Part shown: positions 23,885 through 36,226 of the stretch, one piece after another
How positions within the stretch are numbered: the stretch's first letter is position 1
How the letters are laid out: every line of letters starts with the position of its first letter
NCBI GenBank assembly: GCA_944372445.1
Contig: CALVZE010000007.1
Location: 1-38,725 of the forward strand
Length of the DNA: 38,725 nt
Direction of reading: 5' to 3'
From: an uncultured Clostridia bacterium
Lineage (GTDB): Bacteria; Bacillota; Clostridia; Christensenellales; UBA1242
Program-made: the position numbers and the translations under genes
The notes under the pieces: generated by a model
The model's database searches: none
What the model was told of the DNA's origin: nothing
What the model saw: only the letters and a program-made list of their open reading frames with translations

Positions 23885-23952
23885 GTGCTTGCATTTTTTG
23901 AGAATTTTAAAGTTATTTTACTTAAATTGCTAAAAACAATAAGGAGGTAATC

Positions 23953-25314
23953 ATGTTTAAAATAGCCATCGATGGGTATATGGGTTCTGGAAAATCCACT
24001 CTTGCAAAAGGTTTGTGTGAAAAATTAGGCTCTGACTTTAAGATGTTAGACACGGGAGCTATCTTTCGTGCAATTGCATACTCTTATTATGCTAGCTATG
24101 GTGATATTGTGGAAGAAAGTAAAGTTAGAGAGCTTGTCAATACTAAAAATATTGAGGTGAGGTTCATAGACGGCAAGCAAAATGTCTTTATCAATCAAAA
24201 GAATGTCACTCCTTTTCTTAGAACAGAGGTTATAAGTCAAATGGCTTCAAAAATATCTATCTTTCCTTTTGTGCGCGAAAAATATCTAAAAATAGCAAAG
24301 GAATTTGCAATTCGCAATAATTGTGTTATGGAAGGAAGAGATATCGGCTCAGTTGTCATGCCTGATGCAGATGTCAAAATTTTTTTAACCGCGAATGAGA
24401 ACATTCGAGCCATGCGCAGGTTTGAAGAAGCGAAACTAAGAGGTCAAAAGGTCAAATTTGAGGATGTGTTAAAGGATTTAAGGGAGCGTGATTTGAGAGA
24501 TACGACAAGGACAGAGGCGCCGTTAAAGCCATGTAAAGACAGCATAATAGTTGATAATAGCGATATGAATTTAGAGGAAACAATTGATTATTGCTATGAT
24601 ATTATCACAGAAAAATTAGATAAAAACAATGTGAGTATTGCAATTGATGGTTATGTTTGCTCGGGCAAAAGCACCATTGCAAAGGAGCTTGCAAGACGCT
24701 TAAAATTTAACTTTTTTGACACAGGCGCTGTCTATCGTGGCATAGCATGTGCTTTTAAGTATCTTAATTTAGATGAAAACAAAATTGACGAAAGGTATAT
24801 TGAAATGTTTGCCAAGCAAATTTTTGTAGAAGTTAAATTTGTTAATAATCAAGAACATGTGTATGTAAATGGAGTTGACCATACAAAAAATTTGAGAAGA
24901 GATGATATCACTGTGCTTTCTGCCAAAATTTCACCATTTGTTGTAATTAGAGATAAGGTGCTTAAAATTCAACGCAACTTTGCAAAAATTCATAACGTTG
25001 TTATGGAAGGAAGAGATATAGGAAGCGAGGTTATTCCTGACGCTGATTTTAAATTTTTTATCACTGCGGAGGAATCTGTGCGAGCAGAAAGGCGATACCA
25101 ACAATTTTTAGAGCGTGGCGAAGACATCACTTATGAGAAGGTGTTGGAAGAGTTAAGAGATAGAGACTATAAGGATATTCATAGAGAGCATGGCGCGATA
25201 AAGATGATGCCAGATGCATATCTAATCGACACAACAAATCAGACGCTGGATGAGAGCGTAAATGAGTGTATTGATGTGATTTTAAAGAAGAAAAATCTTA
25301 AAATTTATAAATAA
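23953..25314 (+). CDS. cmk: Tandem cytidylate kinase fusion (two Cmk domains)
   Basis: The 453 residues hold two complete cytidylate kinase domains, about 1-223 and 227-453, where a usual Cmk has about 220-230 in one. Each has a P-loop (DGYMGSGKST, 7-16; DGYVCSGKST, 232-241), a DTG..(F/Y)R CMP-binding element (33-39 and 256-262), a MEGRDIGS element (126-133 and 351-358), an RR pair (155-156 and 380-381), and an RDxxD-type region (179-183 and 404-408). The second P-loop has Cys for Gly at its fourth position. Domain 1 keeps the 'RTEAPL' end common in Cmk; domain 2 reads 'REHGAI'. The enzyme should phosphorylate CMP/dCMP; whether both halves are active is unknown. The start follows a perfect AAGGAGGTAA. 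Confidence 0.92.
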   Translation: MFKIAIDGYMGSGKSTLAKGLCEKLGSDFKMLDTGAIFRAIAYSYYASYGDIVEESKVRELVNTKNIEVRFIDGKQNVFINQKNVTPFLRTEVISQMASKISIFPFVREKYLKIAKEFAIRNNCVMEGRDIGSVVMPDADVKIFLTANENIRAMRRFEEAKLRGQKVKFEDVLKDLRERDLRDTTRTEAPLKPCKDSIIVDNSDMNLEETIDYCYDIITEKLDKNNVSIAIDGYVCSGKSTIAKELARRLKFNFFDTGAVYRGIACAFKYLNLDENKIDERYIEMFAKQIFVEVKFVNNQEHVYVNGVDHTKNLRRDDITVLSAKISPFVVIRDKVLKIQRNFAKIHNVVMEGRDIGSEVIPDADFKFFITAEESVRAERRYQQFLERGEDITYEKVLEELRDRDYKDIHREHGAIKMMPDAYLIDTTNQTLDESVNECIDVILKKKNLKIYK

Positions 25315-33100: not shown

Positions 33101-36100
33101 ATGGACGATAGGGACAACGAAGAACAACTAAATAAGCCGATAGAGGGGCAGATGTGCTATGATGAACTTTTGCTGCCTGAGGAGGAAAAGGAGGAGGAAG
33201 AACCTGCGCCTATCGTTTTGGACGGTCAAATAGATATTTGGTCGCTTGAACAGCAAAATAATGAGAAGAAAGAAATAAAAATTGAGAACGACAATAAACA
33301 AGACACTTCTTTTGTCGAAGAAGAGAATGTAGCTGAAAAAAGTTATGAAGAACCTATCAAAGAAAAGGAACTAATTAATGCTGAAAAGTCGCAAGAAGAT
33401 TTAGAAAATGTCGATGATGTAATTGTCGATAGCGACAAACCTCATGAAACAGGAGTTGATAAACAAGACATTCAAAAAATAGCCGAAGACGAAAAAGAAG
33501 AAAGATTTAAAAGCGGACAGAATGCTAAGCGGTTAGTAAACGAAGTCAAAATAAAGCAAAAAGACGAAAAGTTAGAAGTCAATGATGAAAGTTTTGTCGA
33601 AGAAAGTAAAGAAGACGAAAGTATAGGAAATGTTGAAGAAGATATTGTAGATGTTGCTTCTATAAGCGATATAGATGAGGTTGAAGAAAATATATATGAA
33701 AATGCTAAGATAGTAGAAGATATAGAGCAAGAAAACATCGAAAATGAGGAAATATCAGACGAGGCGATTAAACTTCATGAAAAGTTTGAAGAGAGCTTGA
33801 AAAAAGTCGAAAGAAGAGAGAGGGTTATGGAAGATAAAAGTTTTTACGGAGATGGCGGAAGTGGTATCATCACTAAAAATCTTAGTGATGTTCTTCACGA
33901 CTCTATGATACCTTACACAGAGCATGTTGTTATGGATAGAGCGCTTCCGAGAGTGGAGGACGGGCTTAAACCTGTTCAAAGGCGTATTCTATATTCTATG
34001 ATGGAGCTAGGCTTAACGCCAGATAAACCATACAGAAAATCGGCAAGAATTGTCGGCGATTGTATGGGTAAATATCATCCACATGGCGACTCATCTGTGT
34101 ATGATGCTATGGTGCGTATGTCGCAAGACTTCATTTTGCGCGCGCCTCTTATTGACGGACATGGCAATTTCGGTTCGGTTGACGGTGATAGTGCGGCTGC
34201 TATGCGTTATACAGAAGCCAGAATGACGCCACTTGCATTAGAACTACTCCGCGATTTAGAAAAAGACACCGTAAGGTGGAGTTTGAACTTTGATGACACA
34301 TTGAAAGAACCAGATATCCTTCCTGGACGCTTTCCAAATCTACTTGTAAATGGCGCTTCTGGTATTGCGGTTGGCGTTGCAACCAATATACCTCCACACA
34401 ATTTAGGAGAGGTTATAGACGGCGTTGTCGCATATATCAACAATCCGAATATTACACTTAAAGAGATGATGAAGATTATCAAAGGTCCCGATTTTCCAAC
34501 GGGTGGCGAGTTAATCTTCGGTGACGGCTTAAAGAGTGCATACGAAACAGGGAAAGGCAAAATTGTCATCCGAGCAAAGGTTGGTATAGAGCAGAACGGC
34601 GACAAACAAAGTTTGGTTATCACTGAACTTCCATATCAAGTAAACAAAGCGCTTCTGCTTCAAAAAATTGCCGAGCTTAAAGAAAAAAATAAAGATAAAT
34701 TGCAAGATATCAGTGAAATTCGCGATGAAAGTGATAGGTCGGGGATGCGTGCGATTATCAGGCTGAAAAAAGATGCAAACGCAAAGAAAATTCTTGCATA
34801 TCTCTATCAAAACACCAATATGCAACTGTCCTATGCTATCAACATGGTGGCAATAGCTGGTGGAAAGCCAAAGCAGATGGGGCTAATGGAGATAATTGCC
34901 TACTACACTGCTTTTCAGCGCGATGTTATCGTTCGTAGAACAAAGTATGACCTTGATATTGCCAAAGAGCGCGCGCATATTGTGGAAGGGCTTTTGATTG
35001 CCATAAAAAACATTGACGCGGTGATTAAGATTATCAAAACCTCTGCAAGCGTGTCAGAGGCAAAGACTAGACTTCGTGCTAAATTTGCTTTGAGCGAAAA
35101 GCAAGCGCAAGCAATACTTGATATGCGTTTAGCGCGACTTGTTAATTTGGAAGTCAACAAACTCCAACAAGAACTTAAAGATTTAAAGGCAAAGATTAAG
35201 GAATATGAGGCAATCTTAAATTCAAAGAAACGCCAGCTTGAAGTGGTTAAAACGGAAATACTTGAAGTAAAACGCCGATTTAATAATCCTCGCCGTAGCC
35301 ATGAAACGAAAAATGATGATATTGTTTTGAAGAAGGTGGAAGAAGAGGAAGTGGTTAAAGAATATTATCTTCTTTTAACCGCGGGCAAGACTGTTAAAAA
35401 GGTCAATATGTCAAGTTACATGAAGTCCACTCGAACAGTCAGCGACGGCTCGACGCTATTTGACATTGTCACACAAAAAGTAAAAGTAAAATCCACTGAC
35501 CAAGTTTTAATCTTGACGGAAAAAGGTAACTGTCTGAAAACAAACGTTTCGCAAATTGCTGAATGCAAATGGAGAGATAAAGGCGTCACGCTTAAACAAA
35601 TTGATAGAAGTGTAGACATCATGGAAACGCCTATAAGTATTCTGCTTGTTTCAAGCCAAGAAATAATAATGATGACTAAGAAAGGTATGATAAAACGCAT
35701 GAAAAACGAGGACGCAGTGATAACTAAGTCCTATTATCAAGTTTTAAAAGTGGCAGATGATGATGCGCTAATTAATGCAGAGCTTGACGAAAAAGGAAAA
35801 AACATCTTGATGTTTACCTCTCATGGTTACACTGTCAATTTTGACAAGAGCGAAGTTCCACTCCAAGGGCGCATATCTGGTGGCGTAATGGGCGTTAATC
35901 TTGAAAAAGACGACTATGTAGTTCTCGCTTGTCAAAATCATTTTGATAGCGTCATGGTAATTACCGACAATGGTTTTGTTAAAAAAATAAGCACACATCA
36001 AATTCCGACTTGTGCGAGATATAGAAAGGGTGTAAAATACATCAACTTTACTGCTGGTGGAAAAAATGTCTTGTATGTTGGAGGCAGTGATAAGGCAGTC

Positions 36101-36226
36101 ATTGACCAAGGTTTACAATTTAAAATTGTTGAGGCAAAGAAAGTGAAATTGTCAAATGACCGTTTGGCAAGTGGTGTGCAAGAGGTAAAGAATAAGGTTC
36201 TTGATGTTTATAGTTTTGTTGACTAA
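33101..36226 (+). CDS. parC: Type IIA DNA topoisomerase subunit A (ParC/GyrA) with long acidic N-terminal extension
   Basis: The DNA-cleaving subunit, 1041 residues against the usual 800-850. Residues 1-242 are an acidic, low-complexity extension rich in E, D and K (for example '[11 protein letters not shown]'). The normal start follows ('[20 protein letters not shown]'). The catalytic tyrosine is Y370 (AAMRYTEAR). The quinolone-determining region keeps the susceptible serine and aspartate of '[10 protein letters not shown]'. A coiled coil and a C-terminal beta-propeller follow. At the GyrA-box position the text reads '[12 protein letters not shown]', not QRRGGKG, which favours ParC. An internal ATG (codon 243, 33827) just before the usual start has AGAGAGAGGG upstream, so a shorter form may also be made. 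Nine bases separate it from subunit B. Confidence 0.88.

Follow-up and report, generated by a model that had tools for sequence, protein, structure and literature searches.

A fused tandem cytidylate kinase in a gut Clostridia genus from a family in which PyrH was not detected

The UMP kinase PyrH is near-universal in bacteria, where it is generally held to be essential and is an antibacterial target. The minimal cell JCVI-syn3A retains pyrH together with cmk (PMC6609329). Bacterial Cmk, the cytidylate kinase (TIGR00017; structures 1KDO and 2CMK from E. coli and 2H92 from S. aureus), also occurs within longer chains, and NCBIfam describes the fusions AroA-Cmk (PRK11860), PanC-Cmk (PRK13477), and Cmk-Der (PRK09518). 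Eukaryotes have one UMP/CMP kinase for both nucleotides, which belongs to a different NMP kinase family. In this study, we analyzed a stretch of 38,725 nucleotides (the window) from an uncultured Clostridia bacterium, which encodes a protein in which the partner of Cmk is a second Cmk. We found neither a Cmk-Cmk fusion nor a bacterial family without PyrH described in the open-access literature. Each half of the window protein resembles bacterial Cmk in fold, length, P-loop, and residues R110, R131, D132, R181, D185, and R188 (E. coli numbering throughout; the E. coli reference was verified against 1kdo), whereas two copies per chain, Glu for Asp129, Y40F in half 1, and S101A with an HGAI loop in half 2 set it apart. 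Like the three described fusions, it holds Cmk within a longer chain, but none of their models reaches its cut-off. Its likeness to PyrH is confined to the proposed conversion of UMP to UDP, a likeness of proposed function: PyrH is an unrelated protein of the amino-acid-kinase fold and is absent here, whereas the window protein is a P-loop kinase. The eukaryotic enzyme is a precedent for one kinase acting on UMP and CMP, but the window protein belongs to the bacterial Cmk type. The tandem represents a known enzyme in variant form, and its metabolic setting is unusual.

The fused gene occupies positions 23953 to 25314 of the plus strand, on which the features of this gene given below also lie, and forms one uninterrupted open reading frame of 453 amino acids with an ATG start, preceded by a good Shine-Dalgarno sequence, AAGGAGG, at 23941 to 23947. 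Half 1 (residues 1 to 223; 23953 to 24621) and half 2 (residues 224 to 453; 24622 to 25311) score 200 and 193 bits, respectively, against PF02224 (cut-off, 26) and 201 and 188 bits against the TIGR00017 cmk model (cut-off, 135.6). They share 40% identity across 220 aligned residues (E 4e-58). The initial annotation, which described two cytidylate kinases fused in one protein, is borne out by these scores and by the single frame. There is no stop or assembly join near codon 225, and independent assemblies contain the same unbroken frame, which rules out an assembly or frameshift artifact. A search of the whole genome to which the window belongs (37 contigs, 99.7% complete) revealed no further Cmk, so the fused protein is its sole Cmk. 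In the AlphaFold2 prediction, each domain confidently adopts a Cmk fold (mean pLDDT, 89), and the 21 best PDB matches of the model were all Cmks, with TMt values of 0.87 to 0.93 for the best five. In this predicted model, the helix that closes half 1 (residues 207 to 222) is followed nearly immediately by the strand that opens half 2 (residues 228 to 233); the pTM of 0.54 leaves the mutual arrangement of the two domains uninterpretable.

Comparison of the two halves with other Cmks points to two working active sites. Each half of the window protein retains R41, R110, R131, D132, R181, D185, and R188, and the residue table confirms the P-loop and CMP-binding motifs that had been noted in each. 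P-loop 1 (GYMGSGKS; 23974 to 23997) was identified from the sequence and its invariant columns. P-loop 2 (GYVCSGKS; 24649 to 24672) does carry the Cys that had been described as replacing a Gly, but the fourth position of G-x-x-x-x-G-K-S is variable and relatives also have Ala or Ser there, which rules out the Cys as an inactivating change. The RDxxD region of half 2 had likewise been described as changed; R181, D185, and R188 are in fact kept, and the change lies just after R188, where HGAI (25189 to 25200) replaces VAPL, and at Ala324 (24922 to 24924), the position of E. coli Ser101. Half 1 keeps S101 and the APL-type loop. Ser101 presumably also contacts the base in the E. coli Cmk structure. 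According to PMC3603445, the cytosine is bound by Arg110 and Asp132, with Tyr40 stacking against the base. Half 1 has Phe at position 40, which is Tyr in nearly all Cmks, within its NMP-binding DTGAIFR motif (24049 to 24069). Among tandem sequences, Y40F of half 1 is found in 20 of 20, while half 2 has S101A in 17 of 19, G15C in 18 of 19, and an HGAI-type loop in all 19. Asp129 of the DGRD motif is Glu in both halves (EGRD; 24331 to 24342 and 25006 to 25017) and in 60 of 60 Cmk domains of the genus. D129E is a point change inside the motif, and both halves still pass the curated TIGR00017 cut-off; the Asp129 criterion is our own, drawn from its invariance in 30 Cmks outside the family, and lies outside the curated family definition. 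The dN/dS ratios among close relatives were, for the pairs with measurable dS, 0.07 to 0.10 for half 1 and 0.02 to 0.12 for half 2, rough values because dS is near saturation. Retention of the catalytic residues together with strong purifying selection makes a purely regulatory half unlikely, and the suggestion that one half might be regulatory finds no support in the window protein. Both halves are probably catalytically active NMP kinases, to judge from their residues.

The window's genome falls within a genus of gut Clostridia, and the nearest named relative in our search was Candidatus Caccovivens faecavium, with 91% identity in the tandem protein. The same architecture, which the initial annotation had proposed seeking in related genomes, is present in at least a dozen relatives within the genus. 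Our first sample of 36 other genus members contained 10 fused tandems (G001, G003, G006, G024, G027, G030, and G033 to G036) and an eleventh that is cut by a contig end (G019); a wider sample added those of G064 and G264. Ten public records (L034 to L043) also contain the fused frame, two of them corresponding to G027 and G036. The two halves are separate adjoining genes in G009, the second with its own Shine-Dalgarno sequence. About twenty of the 36 sampled members have one Cmk and a few have none. G016 and G020, rated 99 to 100% complete, gave neither Cmk nor PyrH, and assembly gaps at the cmk locus are possible in these two genomes. The gene recA lies upstream in the closest relatives only, and a conserved operon was set aside as a clue for that reason. 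Contigs end within 2.5 kb downstream of genus cmk loci in 20 of 30 genomes (e.g., L053, L056, and L061) and upstream in 4 of 30; no rRNA was found there, leaving an rRNA operon unsupported as the reason.

Other Cmk fusions occur as well. Two single-Cmk members of the genus have Cmk fused to an epimerase-type domain. In L069 (4821 to 6503; G021), Pfam places a C-terminal NAD-dependent epimerase/dehydratase domain of ~335 amino acids after Cmk, and L080 (G032) and L141 (G244) appear to contain the same fusion, judged by length and sequence. A 621-amino-acid frame in L128 (G140) seems, by eye, to combine Cmk with a PlsC-type acyltransferase and a NUDIX domain, and a second cmk adjoins it.

Phylogenetic analysis placed the half-1 sequences in one clade (98/84), with one of the two G009 genes (G009A) as its sister (95/80), and the half-2 sequences in another (100/99). 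This half-wise grouping indicates that the duplication, and on the simplest view the fusion as well, took place before the tandem genomes diverged, and it rules out recent duplication inside them. An AU test did not reject a tree in which all tandem halves were forced into one clade (p 0.41), which is compatible with a duplication either before or after the split from the single-copy relatives. A half-1-type gene also occurs alone in another genus, g94 (clade support, 97/96). The description of the fusion as old and kept is therefore supported by the single clade that each half forms among tandem genomes, together with the purifying selection on both.

The setting of the tandem is marked by the absence of PyrH. 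No PyrH (TIGR02075) over cut-off was found in any of 147 genomes from 42 genera of the family; in other families of the same order, 90 of 96 genomes gave a match, 88 of them over cut-off. There was no match in the window's genome and no full match in 41 genomes of the genus. Weak matches in the family were partial and mostly lay within longer frames, as expected of other proteins of the amino-acid-kinase superfamily. A search for that superfamily (PF00696), which makes a missed divergent PyrH unlikely, found no member in the window's genome and one each in 7 of the 41 genus genomes. CTP synthase (PF06418) was likewise found in none of the 41, nor was a uracil phosphoribosyltransferase over cut-off, and the genus seems unable to convert UTP to CTP. 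The copy number of the other NMP kinases is ordinary, with one full copy of Adk in 39 of 41 genus genomes and one full copy of Tmk in most.

The Cmks of the family have changed at positions that are fixed elsewhere. P13, R110, D129, and D132 were present in all 30 Cmks from outside the family. Among 78 family-clade Cmks, D129 was replaced by Glu in 73 and P13 was changed in 53, while R110 was changed in 6 and D132 in 9; these are counts of sequences, not of independent events, and support for the clade is modest (68/74). Several genera of the family have a second cmk copy. Genera g76, g79, g87, and g114 share an ancient cmk pair (clades 100/99 and 100/91), and g86 combines a copy of the family type with a canonical one (L118 and L120) that groups with a sequence of another family (G060; 99/99) and was likely acquired by transfer. 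These patterns fit, but do not prove, a family that lost PyrH and may now draw its UMP kinase activity from Cmk.

On this basis, we propose a model in which family-type Cmks took over the phosphorylation of UMP and the tandem consists of two active NMP kinases with diverged acceptor sites; we put the chances of this model at about even. PyrH would have been lost in the family, whose Cmks would phosphorylate UMP besides CMP and dCMP, with ATP as the donor. In the lineage of the tandem, two neighboring genes would then have become fused, this direction of events being the one we infer, after which the halves would have diverged in the acceptor site and perhaps divided the labor. Half 1 appears to have retained more of the canonical cytosine contacts, with half 2 changing around them, and our best guess is that half 1 serves CMP and dCMP and that half 2 is broader or leans toward UMP. 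The more specific version, in which the whole family swapped PyrH for retuned Cmks and the tandem splits CMP and UMP work between two specialized fused domains, we offer only tentatively. The initial annotation had raised different nucleotide preferences for the two halves; the family-wide absence of PyrH and the differing acceptor-site positions make this plausible. Overexpression of E. coli Cmk suppresses the loss of PyrH, and bacterial Cmk has low UMP kinase activity (as reported in PMC3603445); Thermotoga Cmk accepts UMP (PMC10248530). Counting against a UMP role, the cytosine-specifying R110 and D132 are present in both halves. Most family genomes lack PyrH and have a single Cmk, which implies that the replacement does not depend on a tandem. 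A few single-copy genera (g78 and g106) are likewise without PyrH, yet their Cmks have the canonical DGRD; these, the genus genomes that gave neither Cmk nor PyrH, and the modest support for the family clade also weigh against the model. The family as a whole offers a clean natural experiment in gene replacement, and half 1, half 2, and the single-copy relatives are ready comparisons for the possible conversion of a CMP-specific pocket into one for UMP.

That same retention of R110 and D132, along with R131, R181, D185, and R188, is what would be expected if both halves were ordinary CMP and dCMP kinases with one preference, fused for dosage or stability, with UMP handled by an unrelated kinase that we did not recognize. 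Candidates for such a kinase in the window's genome (G000) include an uncharacterized 168-amino-acid P-loop kinase resembling AAA_18 (L003, 1111 to 1617, minus strand; contig C11), a possible alternative NMP kinase, and a PRK-family protein. However, PRK-family proteins exceed the cut-off in only 11 of the 41 genus genomes, and substitutions that are fixed or nearly fixed in one half across the tandem genomes are unlike simple dosage. We regard this explanation as rather unlikely.

An unlikely alternative is that the genus needs no UMP kinase. Because CTP synthase and a recognizable uracil phosphoribosyltransferase are absent from the genus, nucleotide import may bypass UMP kinase: pyrimidine nucleotides would enter as di- or triphosphates, and Cmk would merely recycle CMP and dCMP. 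The small size of the genus genomes (~1 Mb) and the restriction of uridine kinase candidates of the PRK family to those same 11 genomes agree with this. Yet Adk, Tmk, and Cmk have been retained, and the window itself contains pgsA, which scores over cut-off, and a murG-like gene, which at 240 bits falls short of its cut-off (250). PgsA releases CMP, and the MraY step, which precedes MurG, releases UMP. Both nucleotides should therefore be released in this organism and need rephosphorylation, which argues against a dispensable UMP kinase.

Finally, a regulatory or structural pseudokinase in one half is very improbable, for although R188 of half 1 is replaced by Lys in G001 and by Asn in G030, where this half may be decaying, and R188A abolishes the activity of Yersinia Cmk (PMC3603445), both halves retain every catalytic residue in the window protein and in all other tandems read, with dN/dS at ~0.12 or less in each.

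Elsewhere in the window, positions 33101 to 36226 encode a GyrA of 1041 amino acids with ~255 extra N-terminal residues ahead of its conserved domain.
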